Positions 42,763 to 49,492 of a stretch of 64,000 nucleotides of DNA are shown here, piece after piece. This stretch comes from Anaerobaca lacustris. Lineage in GTDB: Bacteria > Planctomycetota > Phycisphaerae > Sedimentisphaerales > Anaerobacaceae. The stretch spans positions 62,001-126,000 of the forward strand of contig NZ_JASCXX010000009.1 of NCBI RefSeq assembly GCF_030012215.1, written 5' to 3'. A model generated the notes under the pieces. It was not told the DNA's origin. It did not search any database and saw only the letters and a program-made list of their open reading frames with translations. Position 1 is the first letter of the stretch. Each line of letters begins with the position of its first letter. A program made the position numbers and the translations under genes.

Positions 42763-43177
42763 ATTCCGTTCCTTTCCCGATCAACGCGTCGGGCTCCTAC
42801 CGTCAGGGGCCCTTTGGTCATTCCGGTGGATCGTGGCTTTGAGGGCCTCCCCCGAGACGACCAACCGCTCCTGCACTGAGGAGCAGCCGATGCACCCGGA
42901 GATACATGCTCTTACCACGACCCCGTAACCATCCCACATTCACAGGGATGTACCAGGATCTTGCCCGTGCTCATGCACGGCGTGTATAGCATAATGAACA
43001 TCGGCCCGATTTGTCAAGTCCTTTCGCGACGAGGGCACAAATCTACGTATTTCTACTTATGTGAACACGATGGCAGGGACGATGCTAAGACAAAGGCTTT
43101 GTGCCGCATCGCGCCCCGAATCACACATTGTGTGGGCCCGCCTGCGTGGCTTCGGCAAGCCGCTCATAGCCTTTGGC
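42763..43177. promoter_or_regulatory. ilv leader and promoter region (minus strand), intergenic
   Basis: On the minus strand TTGACA (43017-43012) and TATGCT (42993-42988) with an 18-base spacer form a promoter reading toward the ilv genes. The 220-base leader holds a small hairpin GCTCCT-GCACTG-AGGAGC (42867-42884). I see no T-box or clear leader peptide. No gene lies in this stretch. Confidence 0.5.
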
Positions 43178-43205
43178 TTGCATTGGGCGAGCCATGTGCT
43201 ATAAT
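43178..43205 (+). promoter_or_regulatory. promoter of the ECF sigma/anti-sigma pair
   Basis: TTGCAT (43178-43183), 16 bases, TATAAT (43200-43205). It is a housekeeping-type promoter; the sigma start must lie downstream of about 43212. Confidence 0.6.
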
Positions 43206-43268
43206 AGTCTGTGTGATTTGCGTGTGTTTTTTCTCATTACGGCCTGGGAACCTGGGAACAAAGCGACG

Positions 43269-43808
43269 GTGGCAGCATACTATCGAAACGAAGGGTCACG
43301 CAAGCATGCCGTGGACGCGGCTGCGGCGGTATTTCGCGAGCACGGGGCATTTATCCGGACCACCATTCGTTTCCAGGCCAGGAATGAGTCTCAGGAAGAC
43401 GACCTGTTGCAGCAGCTCTTTCTTTCGCTCGTGAGCCGCCCCATCCCGGCAGACGTCGAGAACGTCAGGAGTTATCTCTACCGGGCGATTGCCAACGACA
43501 TTATCGATCTGGCCCGGCGAAAGGCCCGCCAGCGGAGACGTTTTGAAAGATTTGCAGAAGATTTTCGGATTTCCATCCACAAACAGGCACCGACCGACGC
43601 TATTGTCAGTGAAGAAGACGGCAATGCGACGTTCGCTTGCCTGACCCGAAAGCTGAGCAGGAGAGAGGCGCAAGCCGTCACGTTGCGGTATCGGGACGAT
43701 CGGAGCATTCCGGAGATCGCCCGGATGATGGGGGTTGACAGGCGAACTGTCAGCCACTATCTGGCCGCCGCCGTGAGGCAGTTGAGGAGAGTCTTGGCGA
43801 TTGAATGA
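43269..43808 (+). CDS. ECF-like RNA polymerase sigma factor
   Basis: A 179-residue sigma factor with region 2 (AVFREHGAFIRTTIRFQARN, then DDLLQQLFLSLV, VRSYLYRAIANDIIDLARRK) and region 4 (LTRKLSRREAQAVTLRYRDD, then IPEIARMMGVDRRTVSHYLA). The reading frame extends upstream to 43173, but the promoter there rules this out. GTG 43269 with GGGAAC upstream was chosen, and alternatives remain. The anti-sigma-like gene follows after 9 bases. Confidence 0.85.
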   Translation: MAAYYRNEGSRKHAVDAAAAVFREHGAFIRTTIRFQARNESQEDDLLQQLFLSLVSRPIPADVENVRSYLYRAIANDIIDLARRKARQRRRFERFAEDFRISIHKQAPTDAIVSEEDGNATFACLTRKLSRREAQAVTLRYRDDRSIPEIARMMGVDRRTVSHYLAAAVRQLRRVLAIE

Positions 43809-43817
43809 GGGATAGGG

Positions 43818-45488
43818 ATGGTTGCGTTCGACGGAAGCGAGTCGTGTCGAGAAGCGGAAGCCTATTACCATGATTATCTCCAGAATCCGAATGGTTCTTC
43901 CGTTCCGCACTCCGTATTAGTTCATATCGAGGAATGTGCCATCTGCCGGCAGCGGGTCCGGATGCTGCGCGAGGCCCTCTGCGAACTGGACGAAGGGTCC
44001 CCGTCGGCGTTGTCCCAGAGGGATTCGCAACTCATTGCGGACCTGCAGTCGCACTTCGAACACCTCGACGAGCCGCTCGCCTGCGCGCACGTCCGGCCGT
44101 TTCTTTGCCGTCTTCTTTCGGCATCCGTGAGGATCCGGATCCCCACACCCGTGACGGTTCACATAGACCAGTGCACTCAGTGCGCAGACGATCTCGACTC
44201 GCTCAGGCAACTGAGGCTTGGCGCCGACCGGCTGGCCCGCCTGAGCCTGCTCTATCGAGAGGGCGGACGACAAGACCCGCATCTGTGCCTGCCGGCCCGG
44301 TCGCACAGTGCCGCTGTCGCCGCCGCCAACCTGGAGGGCGTCTCTGCGGAGATCCTCGATCACCTGTGCGTGTGCCTGCATTGCCGCAACGCTGTGTACC
44401 AGCACCGCCAGCGTCTGCTGGACCACGCCGAACGCGAGGCGGACCAGCCAGGATCGCTCTTTTGCGAACGCATCTCGACAGCCGAGCTGTTCGACTGTGT
44501 CGTTTTCTACGGCCAGCAGCCCGAGTTCCTCCAAGGGGCCGAGCGGCGCGCCCTTTGTGAACACGTCCGCGCCTGCTCCAGGTGCCTGGAGAGAATGCAG
44601 CAGATTCATCGCGCCGTCTTCGGGATCGCCGAGCGCACCGATTCCGGCGTGATCTCCGTATACACAGTGGACAGCCTTGGCAGAACGATCCGTCAGGATG
44701 CCCTGCCCGCGTCCTATGAGGCCTATCCGATCGACGTCCGGGTCGAGCGGCGCGACCCGGCGACGGCTGCGAGCGACGTTGGATTCGCGGGACGCCTGGC
44801 GCACCGCCTCGGCGGACCGACCGTCAAGCCGCTTGCTAGAGCTGCCTTTCTCGCGGTCGCGATGATCCCACTGGCGGTCCTGTTCGTGGTGAGCATGCCA
44901 TCGGCATCGGGGTTGAGCGTTCGCCAGGTCGATCAGACCCTCGCCAGTGCCAGAACGTTGCACATGGCGGTATTTCGCACCGGCAAGAGCGAGCCCATCC
45001 ATCAGTTGTGGGTCTCCCGAGGCAGGGGGATCGTCATTTCGGAGACAGCGTCGGAGCGGCGGGTCTATGACCTGACGAACCGTCGCATGACGGTCATCCA
45101 GCCCGGACTCGGGACGGTCGAGCACACGAATCTGGACAGATCCGATGGCGAAGCCGTCGAACGCTCCGTACGCCGCATCCTGGAATCCTCGCTGCTCGAC
45201 GCGCCGCTCGACGCCGAGTTGAGTCGCCAGACAGCCCCTCCCGAGCCGGAGCTGGCCGGACTGGACGTATATGAACTGACCTGGGATCGCTCGCCCGATG
45301 CCCGCCGCGCCCCACTACCGGGCAGACTGCAAATCTACGTCGATCCCGTCACGAGACTGCCCCGACGACAGGAGGTCTATTCGTGGGTCCCTGCCTTGAA
45401 TGATTGGCACATCCAAACGAGCCTGTACGCGTATCCGGCGGATGACGAGATCGAGGCCCGTCGCCGGAAACTGCTGTCGGAGAAATAG
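43818..45488 (+). CDS. membrane anti-sigma-like protein with four zf-HC2 units
   Basis: A 556-residue protein, far longer than common ZAS anti-sigma factors. Its cytoplasmic N-terminus has four H-x3-C-x2-C zinc fingers (H36/C40/C43, H115/C119/C122, H182/C186/C189, H249/C253/C256), spaced roughly 70 residues apart. One transmembrane helix follows (about 338-359, ARAAFLAVAMIPLAVLFVVS). The extracytoplasmic part (VRQVDQTLASARTLHMAVFR, then IVISETASERRVYDLTNRRM) resembles a LolA/LppX-like sensor fold. It is 9 bases after the sigma gene. It likely holds the sigma factor at the membrane; the number of fingers is unusual. Confidence 0.78.
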   Translation: MVAFDGSESCREAEAYYHDYLQNPNGSSVPHSVLVHIEECAICRQRVRMLREALCELDEGSPSALSQRDSQLIADLQSHFEHLDEPLACAHVRPFLCRLLSASVRIRIPTPVTVHIDQCTQCADDLDSLRQLRLGADRLARLSLLYREGGRQDPHLCLPARSHSAAVAAANLEGVSAEILDHLCVCLHCRNAVYQHRQRLLDHAEREADQPGSLFCERISTAELFDCVVFYGQQPEFLQGAERRALCEHVRACSRCLERMQQIHRAVFGIAERTDSGVISVYTVDSLGRTIRQDALPASYEAYPIDVRVERRDPATAASDVGFAGRLAHRLGGPTVKPLARAAFLAVAMIPLAVLFVVSMPSASGLSVRQVDQTLASARTLHMAVFRTGKSEPIHQLWVSRGRGIVISETASERRVYDLTNRRMTVIQPGLGTVEHTNLDRSDGEAVERSVRRILESSLLDAPLDAELSRQTAPPEPELAGLDVYELTWDRSPDARRAPLPGRLQIYVDPVTRLPRRQEVYSWVPALNDWHIQTSLYAYPADDEIEARRRKLLSEK

Positions 45489-45495
45489 CACCCTC

Positions 45496-46314
45496 TCACC
45501 TCGGGACCCACAAAGGCGTCCGATGGTGGTACGTCGGCGCGTCCTCTTCGCCGGCGCTCTCCACAGCCAGCGCCTCCGCCTTCATGCGATCGACGTGCCC
45601 ATCGGCAAACCCGACGTTTACGGTCTTGTTCGGATGCCGGCCGCCGATGGCGTCGTCGAGCTGTCCGGGCAGCAGTTCCTTCTCCTTGTTGATCGCAAGG
45701 CCGGGGATGTACGCCGGCCCCACCGCCAGGGCGCCGGAGTAACGATGGGGAGGATCGGCCGTCGCATCCCACCAGCAAATGAGGGCATAGCCGCTGTCGA
45801 CCAGTAGGAGCGTTGCACCCGGGTGGCGGATCGTGCTCGTGGACAATGGGGGCCCCGGGAACTCCCGCCTGTAGGGACTGACATCGACGGCGCTCCGGCA
45901 CAGGGACCGGTTGATGCCGTAGTTGCCATACAGGACGCTCCGCGACAGGCTTGATTCTCCAATCCGTCGCGAGGGACACTCCAGTATCTTCCTGTCCCGC
46001 GAGGATTGATGGCGGACGGCGCCGATGAAGTCCGGCCAATACCAGCCCGGCAGATCGCGAGTCGGATCACAAAGGTAGCCACCCGGCGGCGGCGGCCGCA
46101 GGGCCCAGATGCCATAAGGCAGGGTCTCGTGTTCCGCTTCGTACTGATGGAATTGGATCGCCAAGTCCCGAATGCGGGCCTGACAGACCGTCGCTCTCGC
46201 CTGCGCGCGTGCGCGGTGGAGCACCGGAAACAGCAGCGCCGCCAGAAACGTGATGACGGCGATCACGACAATCAGCTCAACGAGCGCAAAACCTCTGAGT
46301 CCCATGGTCCGCAT
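45496..46314 (-). CDS. prepilin-type / H-X9-DG-like pseudopilin
   Basis: A 272-residue protein starting MRTMGLRGFALVELIVVIAV, then ITFLAALLFPVLHRARAQAR. This is a type IV prepilin N-terminus: Gly before Phe as the peptidase site, Glu at position +5, hydrophobic helix. The C-terminus ends with VNVGFADGHVDRMKAEALAV, the planctomycete 'processing-associated H-X9-DG' tail. It is probably a pseudopilin-like surface protein. It is convergent with the anti-sigma gene, 7 bases between stops, and 111 bases downstream of the C39 gene on the same strand. Confidence 0.85.
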   Translation of the reverse strand: MRTMGLRGFALVELIVVIAVITFLAALLFPVLHRARAQARATVCQARIRDLAIQFHQYEAEHETLPYGIWALRPPPPGGYLCDPTRDLPGWYWPDFIGAVRHQSSRDRKILECPSRRIGESSLSRSVLYGNYGINRSLCRSAVDVSPYRREFPGPPLSTSTIRHPGATLLLVDSGYALICWWDATADPPHRYSGALAVGPAYIPGLAINKEKELLPGQLDDAIGGRHPNKTVNVGFADGHVDRMKAEALAVESAGEEDAPTYHHRTPLWVPR

Positions 46315-46425
46315 TGTAGGGGCGGTTATAGGTAAGTCAATCAAGACCTGGTTTGGCACAAGCAGGGGAGGATCATCCAATCCTCGCCTGCCCGTAACGA
46401 TACGATAGTATGGGGGTTGTCCCGC

Positions 46426-48222
46426 CTAATCGCAGGCGTACATGCCGTACCAGTCCCATACGCCGGTCACCCGACACTCTACGGCAATCAGGTCCCAATA
46501 GCAGTCCGATCCGGCCATCCGGGCGTACAGAAAGGTCTCACACATCCCAAACGGAGCAGGCTCGCAACCCCACCGTTCGAAGTACCACTGGAAGTAGCCC
46601 CAGCAGTTGAGTCCGGTACTCTCGCACGGAATGATCCATTCCTCTTGAATCACCAGCGTGCAGCTCCAGCCGTCGCCACCGGTGATGCGACGCAGGACAT
46701 CGTCCGAAACATCCGCGAACGGCCCTTCAATCGGCTGATTCGACAGCAACAGGGCGGTTCCCTCGGACCAGTCCATCGCCATGAAGGCTCTGTCCTTGCG
46801 AGAGTAGAATCTGTCGTTGGCGAGATCAACGATCCAGGCGTAGCGATCGTCGACGTGATCGAGCACCACAAAATGCTCCTGTCCCGGCAGGTGCAGAATC
46901 GCCTGGCACCCCGACAAGGTCTCCAGGGTCGCGATGTCCGTCTGGACGACACGACAATGCAGACCGAGACTCTGAGCGCTTCGCTTCAGGTCGTACATCG
47001 TCGTCCGCCCGTCCGACCCGATCATCTGTGTCAGCCTGGCCTCCGGGGCGACCTTGCCCAACTGGGTCGCGGCATACTGGAGCGAGGCGGTAGCACAGTT
47101 CTGAGGCCGCCTGCCCTGCTCGGCGGCATAGGCCAGTCGCTCGGCCAGAAGCAGGTCCGTGTCGACTGTATTGGAATGGTGGTACACCGAAGCCTTCGTC
47201 GTCATCGCCGAATGGTACTCGACGACGGTGCCGCCGCCGAAGGCGACTTGGAACCTCTCCGGTCCCGGAACGCGGGTGTCGACGGCGGTGAAATCCCATT
47301 TGTCGGAGCGCAGCAGCCGATTCGTGAAGGCGTCATGCTGCTCGATCAGAACCGTGGTGGGCACCCAGTAGCCCCCGAAATTCCGGTAGCCGGAGCAGTA
47401 GGTGGACGTCAACGTGTTGTCGCCGGCGGGCAGCGTGTAGGCGGTCACCGCCAAGTCTTTCGATGCGTCCAGGACAAACGTCATCTCCGAACCGTTGGAT
47501 CGTCTCACAGTCATCTCGATTTGTGTGGTGCCGTCACGCGTGATCTCGTTGGCGGAGACCTGCGCTGCGGCCAAGCTCGCGTACGACAGCACGCCGGTGC
47601 CCCAGGGGATGACGCCGGCCGTCAGCGGCCCCGTAACCGCGCGAGGCAACCGGCCGCTCGTATCCACAATGGCTCCGCCGGCCGAGGCCGCGTAGATCGT
47701 ATACTTCTGCCCGTCCCAGGCGAAAACCCGGCGATTGTTCCAGTTCCTGTTGAAGAAGTTGACCATGGAGTTCCCCGCCAGGTCGGCCGACGGTGTGACC
47801 GAATCGCTCCGCGACGCAATCGCCACCTCCCAATAAAACCTTGTGCCATCGTATCTTAGCACCACTGAAGAGGTCATGTTCGATTCGTTGGACAACTCGT
47901 ATCGTACGTTGAACGGGATGGCGTCCAGGCGCATCTTCTGGAGTTCGCTCGTGCGTTCGGGCTTGTCGGCCTTGCTCTGGTACTCACGAATCTCCTGCTC
48001 GATCCGGCTGGCAATCAACGCTGCGTCTGTGGTTCTGGGCGCCCTGTACTGCTGGTGTCTGGCCTCGATGGTACCGGCTGGAACCCAGGTCTCCCGGCCG
48101 GCACTGGTGAGTTTCTCTATGACGTCGAGCACCTCGCCCCGGTCCAGAGCCCTCTGGCCATAGACCGGTGCGCCGGCGCACACCACCAGCACCAGGACCG
48201 TTCTAACCTTTGAAAACATCAT
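46426..48222 (-). CDS. secreted LolA-like / C39-peptidase protein with its own GG-site and Cys-rich tail
   Basis: A 598-residue exported protein (signal MMFSKVRTVLVLVVCAGAPV, then YG). Residues ~100-350 are a beta-rich LolA-like domain. Residues ~372-495 look like a C39 papain-fold peptidase: QNCATASLQYAATQLGK (Cys 376), then CQAILHLPGQEHFVVLDHVD (His 450) and YAWIVDLANDRFYS (Asp 466). After it comes FADVSDDVLRRITGG (GG 515-516), which has the form of a double-glycine leader. It is followed by an 82-residue tail with eight Cys (521, 533, 540, 553, 561, 574, 583, 597) and many Trp/Tyr. So protease and a GG-type substrate appear in one chain. AAGGAGGT precedes ATG 48222. Self-processing is inference. 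Confidence 0.72.
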   Translation of the reverse strand: MMFSKVRTVLVLVVCAGAPVYGQRALDRGEVLDVIEKLTSAGRETWVPAGTIEARHQQYRAPRTTDAALIASRIEQEIREYQSKADKPERTSELQKMRLDAIPFNVRYELSNESNMTSSVVLRYDGTRFYWEVAIASRSDSVTPSADLAGNSMVNFFNRNWNNRRVFAWDGQKYTIYAASAGGAIVDTSGRLPRAVTGPLTAGVIPWGTGVLSYASLAAAQVSANEITRDGTTQIEMTVRRSNGSEMTFVLDASKDLAVTAYTLPAGDNTLTSTYCSGYRNFGGYWVPTTVLIEQHDAFTNRLLRSDKWDFTAVDTRVPGPERFQVAFGGGTVVEYHSAMTTKASVYHHSNTVDTDLLLAERLAYAAEQGRRPQNCATASLQYAATQLGKVAPEARLTQMIGSDGRTTMYDLKRSAQSLGLHCRVVQTDIATLETLSGCQAILHLPGQEHFVVLDHVDDRYAWIVDLANDRFYSRKDRAFMAMDWSEGTALLLSNQPIEGPFADVSDDVLRRITGGDGWSCTLVIQEEWIIPCESTGLNCWGYFQWYFERWGCEPAPFGMCETFLYARMAGSDCYWDLIAVECRVTGVWDWYGMYACD

Positions 48223-48427: not shown

Positions 48428-49342
48428 CTACGGCATGGCGTCCGGCGTGTCGGAGTCCTGGCCAGCCGCGATGACTTCCGTCCGCGCGAGCCAGTAATCG
48501 CTGAAGAGCGCCAGGTCGCAGACGTCGATTCGATCGTCGCCGTTCAGATCGACTGCCATCGCCTCGTTCGGGTCGAAAACGAAGCTCTGGCGCCAACGAG
48601 CGGCCAACCGGGCGAAATCAGCGAAGTTGACGAGCGTGTCGGCATCGTAGTCACGAGATGCAACATGATGGAAAGAAAGGACTTGGATCAAGATCGCTTC
48701 GAACGGCGGTGGATCGCCGGGATCGTAGGGATTCGGCTCGGCCACGATGTCCGCGCTCGGCGCGTATCCGTACAACCCGACGCTGCACGTCCCGACGGCC
48801 TCGGCCTGGTAATCCAGAACGAACCATGGGCCGGGAACCGCATTCCAGGACGAAAGCAGGTGAAATGACAGCCCGCGCGCATCTGCGGCGGCCGTGACCA
48901 AGGCGTTTGTGCCGGCCGACGGAAGACACGAGCCTTCGTAGCTGAAGAAGGGAGCAGCCGGATTGTCGCCCCTCGCCGAGATGACCCCCGTGTCCAGGTT
49001 CGCCCGCGAAAGCCACAGCGCACCATCCCAACCCGATGCCATATCGGACGTTACGATAATGACGAGCCGGGTCCCCACCATGATGTCGCGATACACACCG
49101 GGCACGTTGGGATCGGCCAGGGCCAGAGGCGTGGCCTCATCGCCCAGGAAAACGTGGGCTGAAACCCCCGCAGCGACGGTCGAGCCAAGGAGCCCCGCTA
49201 AGATCAGCGAAAAAGAGGCGATCGCGCGCGGACTAATCCGCGCCGTATGGCTCCCGCTCCGCGCATACAGGCCACGATCGAGCATCGGGCGGCCGACGCG
49301 CTGCCCCCGTCGCCCCCGAACGTCCGTATCTACGATTCCCAT
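48428..49342 (-). CDS. secreted protein with dockerin-type calcium repeat
   Basis: A 304-residue protein with a late signal segment (AIASFSLILAGLLGSTVAAG), a ~165-residue beta domain (LVIIVTSDMASGWDGALWLS, then VPGPWFVLDYQAE) and a C-terminal dockerin type I pair: SRDYDADTLVNFADFARLAA, then VDLNGDDRIDVCDLALFSDY. Such tails in Phycisphaerae mark extracellular proteins. The -10 box TATAAT (49354-49349) lies right before ATG 49342, implying a leaderless start; ATG 49285 is an alternative. Function unknown. Confidence 0.78.
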   Translation of the reverse strand: MGIVDTDVRGRRGQRVGRPMLDRGLYARSGSHTARISPRAIASFSLILAGLLGSTVAAGVSAHVFLGDEATPLALADPNVPGVYRDIMVGTRLVIIVTSDMASGWDGALWLSRANLDTGVISARGDNPAAPFFSYEGSCLPSAGTNALVTAAADARGLSFHLLSSWNAVPGPWFVLDYQAEAVGTCSVGLYGYAPSADIVAEPNPYDPGDPPPFEAILIQVLSFHHVASRDYDADTLVNFADFARLAARWRQSFVFDPNEAMAVDLNGDDRIDVCDLALFSDYWLARTEVIAAGQDSDTPDAMP

Positions 49343-49348
49343 CCCCGC

Positions 49349-49377
49349 ATTATAGGGATTTGGCGTTTCCAGGTCAA
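49349..49377 (-). promoter_or_regulatory. promoter of the dockerin gene
   Basis: On the minus strand TTGACC (49377-49372), a 17-base spacer and TATAAT (49354-49349). The predicted transcription start coincides with the ATG at 49342. Confidence 0.65.
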
Positions 49378-49492
49378 CCCGCTTGCCTTGGTAAGCGACA
49401 GCAGGGCCCAAGGCCCTGAATGCCCCAGATCGGCCCCCGGACACGGAACAGGAAGCCTTTCGCAACACGGGCGCGTCATGGATCGGGAAACA

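Follow-up and report, generated by a model that had tools for sequence, protein, structure and literature searches.

C39 peptidases are known chiefly as the cytoplasmic front ends of ABC exporters. To our knowledge, product release is otherwise performed by a separate enzyme or transporter. In the structure of LahT150 with its leader, the C39 domain accommodates leader positions -4, -7, and -12 in a hydrophobic groove, and the accepted leader ends are GG, GA, or GS (PMC6363468). The substrate of FapD from the Pseudomonas Fap amyloid system is unsettled, and canonical C39 sites are absent there (PMC5557850). Among polymorphic toxins, a C39-like domain has been listed as a toxin, not as a releasing peptidase (PMC3482391).

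The few exported C39 peptidases leave their substrates open, while in the protein described here the enzyme, the recognition sequence, and the cargo share one chain. No description of such a C39-leader-cargo fusion was found in the literature searched, which largely lacked subscription papers. The protein is encoded in a stretch of 64,000 nucleotides from Anaerobaca lacustris, referred to below as the window.

Overall architecture of the protein

The protein is specified by an ATG-started open reading frame of 598 amino acids (46426..48222, (-)), present in the open reading frame translation. A preliminary description of this DNA had proposed a C39-type peptidase joined in a single chain to a double-glycine leader and an eight-cysteine tail, and this organization was confirmed by the open reading frame, a Pfam match, and conservation among homologues. 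The chain starts with a predicted Sec signal peptide, MMFSKVRTVLVLVVCAGAPVYGQ (residues 1-23; 48154..48222, (-); from the sequence). A signal-peptide-like N-terminus was scored by a simple rule in 70 of 77 homologues, and several of the remaining seven start with a residue other than Met or carry a frame extension.

The signal peptide is followed by a conserved N-terminal domain (residues 25-345; 47188..48150, (-)), which was delimited in alignment A6 and has a mean column identity of 59% there. A PDB search with this domain returned no match. A LolA/RseB-like fold, common to this domain and the outer domain of the neighboring anti-sigma factor, was also considered, and neither hhalign nor the PDB search gave support for it. 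The structure prediction, made from a three-sequence alignment only (the window protein, L031, and L032), reached a pLDDT of 30.7, too low for interpretation. Purifying selection acts along the whole chain.

C39 peptidase domain

Residues 372-495 (46738..47109, (-)) match Peptidase_C39 (Pfam PF03412) with an E-value of 8.8e-13 and a score of 48.7 bits, well above the cut-off of 22. The papain-type arrangement of Cys376, His450, and Asp466 noticed earlier was borne out, as all three residues fall on catalytic columns and are near-invariant in the 77 homologues (Cys in 77, His in 77, and Asp in 76). In the PDB, the profile of the protein family matches the C39 domains of ComA, PCAT1, and LahT, and the catalytic residues align with those of ComA and PCAT1. 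The dN/dS ratio in the domain is 0.13-0.22.

Neither an ABC nor a membrane domain was detected in the 598-aa protein with Pfam. Its C39 domain is the sole one in the genome, so there is no C39-ABC transporter to do the job; a separate transporter of this kind encoded elsewhere was searched for throughout the genome, and none is present.

Other C39 fusions were observed during the searches. A 932-aa protein (L121:1351-4146 (-), genome G009, contig C3) has TPR repeats and a C39 domain, then a leader-like segment FAKLAKKELSNILLG and, immediately after it, a cysteine-rich segment and many RHS repeats; with LG replacing GG, it may represent another type of auto-processing C39 fusion. In the same bacterial family, exported transporter-free C39 peptidases are fused to a redoxin/thioredoxin-like domain (L123:2194-3675 (-)) or to DUF1573 (L122:2936-4408 (+)); these two have neither the leader nor the eight-cysteine tail.

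Double-glycine leader

Directly after the C39 domain, residues 504-516 read DVSDDVLRRITGG and end in GG. The leader as delimited from 80 aligned leaders comprises residues 502-516 (46675..46719, (-)), with F at -15, V at -12, L at -7, I at -4, and G at -2 and -1 in the window protein, and the predicted cut falls after Gly516. When the 80 leaders were aligned by anchoring at the P2 glycine, positions -12 and -4 were each filled by a large hydrophobic residue in 99% (at -4 predominantly Ile) and position -7 in 81% (predominantly Leu), the anchoring rule being slightly biased toward -4 and -7 and leaving -12 free. The residues separating these hydrophobic positions are polar, and there are no indels between -12 and -1. 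P2 is Gly in 79 of the 80 leaders, and 76 have G, A, or S at P1; exceptional P2-P1 pairs are AG in L017 and GT in L025. The same pattern was obtained in an independent MAFFT alignment. In a thinned set of 39 segments less than 50% identical, position -12 was hydrophobic in 97%, -7 in 64%, and -4 in 97%.

For the window protein, composition shuffling gave a 2.3% chance of hydrophobic residues at -12, -7, and -4 together with G[G/A/S] in the leader stretch. The pattern in this one protein is mild evidence; because it is conserved over 80 leaders, it is secure and beyond chance. Judged from these positions, the leader grammar of the family is the one read by the C39 groove of LahT. A check for homologues lacking the GG site or the tail found the site, the tail, and the catalytic triad kept in practically all.

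In L127, L128, and L129 (order-level family f5), Met or Leu takes the P1 position, and the distance to the first cysteine is shortened by one residue. These three may have either a shifted cut site or altered cutting.

Eight-cysteine tail

The predicted released product consists of residues 517-598 (82 aa; 46429..46674, (-)), as delimited in the homologue alignment. Exactly eight cysteines were counted in it (positions 521, 533, 540, 553, 561, 574, 583, and 597), just as had been noted at the outset. All 76 tailed homologues have at least eight cysteines, and 48 have exactly eight. Genuine loss of a conserved cysteine was seen among them only at 553 and 561, both in L112, and this joint loss suggests one disulfide, 553-561.

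The homologues carry a single tail family with the eight conserved cysteines throughout, and no variable C-terminal toxin domain occurs across them. With a dN/dS of 0.14-0.41, the tail evolves faster than the protease, yet it is under purifying selection. No known family or relative was retrieved for the tail in Pfam, NCBIfam, or the PDB.

In L098, L111, and L112 (order-level family f2), an additional cysteine pair (e.g., DDCEFGC) follows the glycine site and precedes the first of the conserved cysteines, and a fifth disulfide may occur in this branch. A weak match to the leader and the start of the tail, containing two stop codons, was located at G281:C7:11886-12071 (-) and is perhaps a decayed second copy.

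A natural split version

The search with a tail-only profile gave two additional matches, both in genome G079. They are small genes at G079:C198, 131 and 145 aa from stop to stop, each encoding a signal peptide, a leader, and an eight-cysteine core, and their leaders end in IPDDEAAQVTGG or VPESEAALIVGG. Immediately downstream of both, a distant relative of the protease is encoded, which ends where its leader would start. This relative has Gln at the position of the catalytic Asp and scores no Pfam C39 match; the standalone precursor matched nothing in Pfam or NCBIfam.

The idea that the tail is the substrate of the protease was thereby put to a natural test, since the sole tail-less relative is the one adjoined by two genes of the signal peptide-leader-GG-eight-cysteine type. 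Although this is the only split case found, in one genome, no other observation speaks as strongly for the tail being what the protease acts on as this cargo with its own leader beside a tail-less protease. The split form also means that the protease need not be encoded together with its cargo, the two occurring either fused or as separate genes. The reading of the GG stretch as a plain linker was rejected on the conservation of the leader and on this split form.

Gene neighborhood

Just downstream of the C39 gene lies a pseudopilin-like gene (45496..46314, (-); DUF1559/SBP_bac_10 with an N-terminal methylation motif, from Pfam and NCBIfam), whose start is likely Met23 of the open reading frame opening at 46380. 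Among family loci with sufficient flanking sequence it occupies this place in 38 of 47, and among order-level loci in 24 of 26. Upstream and in the same direction, a secreted dockerin-type protein is encoded (48428..49468, (-); start codon uncertain), with a Dockerin_1 match of E 2e-4 that is slightly under the cut-off. The dockerin-type gene was found at 34 of the 46 family loci whose flanks were long enough and at 24 of 26 order-level loci, and the N-terminal part of its product in 23 of 25 genomes that have the C39 gene versus 0 of 16 that do not.

Convergent with the pilin gene is the gene of a probable anti-sigma factor (43818..45488, (+)), assigned by a weak NCBIfam anti-sigma match and by its layout of a cysteine-rich cytoplasmic part, one transmembrane segment, and an extracytoplasmic domain. 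It was in the same place at 33 of the 47 family loci with long enough flanks and at most order-level loci. Its outer domain gave no match in Pfam. The cytoplasmic part of this candidate is unusually long, with several HxxxCxxC-like motifs. The adjacent ECF sigma factor gene (43173..43808, (+); TIGR02937, E 3.6e-20) also keeps its place in order-level loci.

The dockerin-type gene, the C39/tail gene, the DUF1559 pseudopilin gene, and the convergent ECF sigma/anti-sigma pair form a conserved five-gene locus. The preliminary description had suggested that the prepilin-like gene and the sigma/anti-sigma pair might be part of the same locus, and their conservation across the order agrees with this; the dockerin-type gene had been overlooked, as had the order-wide extent of the leader pattern and its split form. 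At some loci neighbors are rearranged or missing, so the link to the neighbors is strong but short of absolute. No immunity-like gene recurs beside the C39/tail gene within the five-gene locus.

Distribution among genomes

The protein was present, mostly at full length, in 56 of 89 genomes of the same bacterial family, and a class-wide search added full-length members in three more families of the same order. In the class and phylum searches its occurrence was confined to this order of Phycisphaerae. The tail profile gave nothing convincing beyond the order in 397 class genomes, and in 392 phylum genomes it gave one marginal match (0.0065) that holds a stop. Two relatives are Planctomycetota/Phycisphaerales MAGs, and the carriers are uncultured planctomycete bacteria. 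The five-gene locus stands out as a conserved unit in a little-studied bacterial order.

Proposed mechanism and alternatives

We regard it as probable that the protein is a self-contained export-and-maturation protein that is exported by Sec, cut by its C39 domain after Gly516, and frees its cargo outside the cytoplasm. The signal peptide implies that Sec would carry the protein over the inner membrane. Once exported, the 82 residues at the C-terminus would fold as a compact disulfide-rich domain, and the segment around residues 502-516 would bind the hydrophobic groove of C39 via the conserved positions -12, -7, and -4. The site formed by Cys376, His450, and Asp466 would then cut after Gly516 and free the cargo; the enzyme may cut its own chain or an adjacent copy. 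Rather than a fast-evolving toxin, the cargo most likely represents a conserved component of the envelope or surface, or a signal. Its probable partners are the dockerin-type surface protein and the pseudopilin, both conserved with it, and the locus is probably under the control of the adjacent ECF sigma/anti-sigma pair. That the protein might cut itself and release its tail had already been suggested, and at the sequence level this idea is supported by the conservation of the leader, triad, and tail, and by the split operon.

It is unlikely, but worth weighing first, that the leader never leaves the C39 groove, serving there as a permanent tether or pseudosubstrate, so that the tail is held, or the enzyme is inactive, until another substrate displaces it, and nothing is released. 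Conservation of the leader would be equally expected here, P1 deviates from G/A/S in some leaders, and joining each enzyme to a single cargo would waste a catalyst. Against this, the Cys and His that are invariant in all 77 homologues would be needless for a pure tether, and the split G079 cargo, having its own leader and signal peptide, is no tethered domain there.

Distinctly improbable is a bacteriocin- or toxin-like effector freed by auto-processing in the style of polymorphic toxins. Such an effector would fit the double-glycine leader, a typical feature of bacteriocins; polymorphic toxins include some with papain-like domains for auto-processing (PMC3482391), and a related genome encodes the protein with a C39 domain, a leader-like segment, and RHS repeats. 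The tail, however, is conserved, under purifying selection, and unswapped between homologues; the five-gene locus lacks a recurrent immunity-like gene, and the standalone precursor is without a Pfam or NCBIfam match. Slow evolution of the cargo and its conserved partners point to a surface or signaling component and not to a weapon.

Very improbable is a mere linker at the GG stretch with C39 targeting other proteins, e.g., the dockerin-type neighbor or the pilin, for although FapD is a Sec-exported C39 peptidase free of an ABC transporter with a substrate from another gene (PMC5557850) and is the best, if weak, NCBIfam match, and although the neighbor genes are conserved, the hydrophobic residues at -4, -7, and -12 and the Gly at -2 are kept in 80 sequences, two of which have a quite different N-terminus, and no comparable leader was seen in those neighbor proteins that were inspected by eye.

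One chain holding the enzyme, leader, and cargo, together with a natural set of about 75 variants and one split form, makes cleavage, the extracytoplasmic leader grammar, and action in cis versus in trans directly testable. The finding also suggests hunting for precursors with a Sec signal and a GG leader, a class overlooked by exporter-based searches. More tentatively, the locus could represent maturation without a transporter: a Sec-exported C39 peptidase with leader and cargo in cis would yield a four-disulfide protein that, with a dedicated pseudopilin and a dockerin-type partner and under the control of an ECF sigma factor, makes up an order-specific surface or signaling system with no described counterpart.

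Comparison with known systems

With the PCAT/AMS transporters (ComA, PCAT1, LahT), the window protein has in common the C39 fold, the C/H/D triad, and, by prediction, the reading of leader positions -4, -7, and -12 and the cut after GG, GA, or GS. It differs in having a Sec signal instead of the ABC transporter, which is the defining feature of PCATs, in its predicted cut outside the cytoplasm, and in carrying the leader and cargo fused C-terminally to the protease. FapD (NF058616) is similarly a Sec-exported, transporter-free C39 peptidase from an operon for a surface structure, but FapD is a separate protein, whereas here the enzyme, leader, and cargo are in one chain; the window protein fails the FapD equivalog in NCBIfam with 20 bits against a cut-off of 330. 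In auto-processing polymorphic toxins (papain-like, caspase, HINT), a peptidase frees the adjoining C-terminal module of the same chain, as is predicted here, while the window protein has a conserved cargo in place of swapped toxin domains and a double-glycine leader as the cut site. Class II bacteriocins, microcins, and RiPP precursors resemble it in the grammar of the leader and cut site and in the small cysteine-rich core, a likeness that is clearest for the split precursors of G079. Unlike these peptides with GG leaders, the window protein has a Sec signal preceding the leader, a genome without a C39-ABC exporter, and a slowly evolving core.
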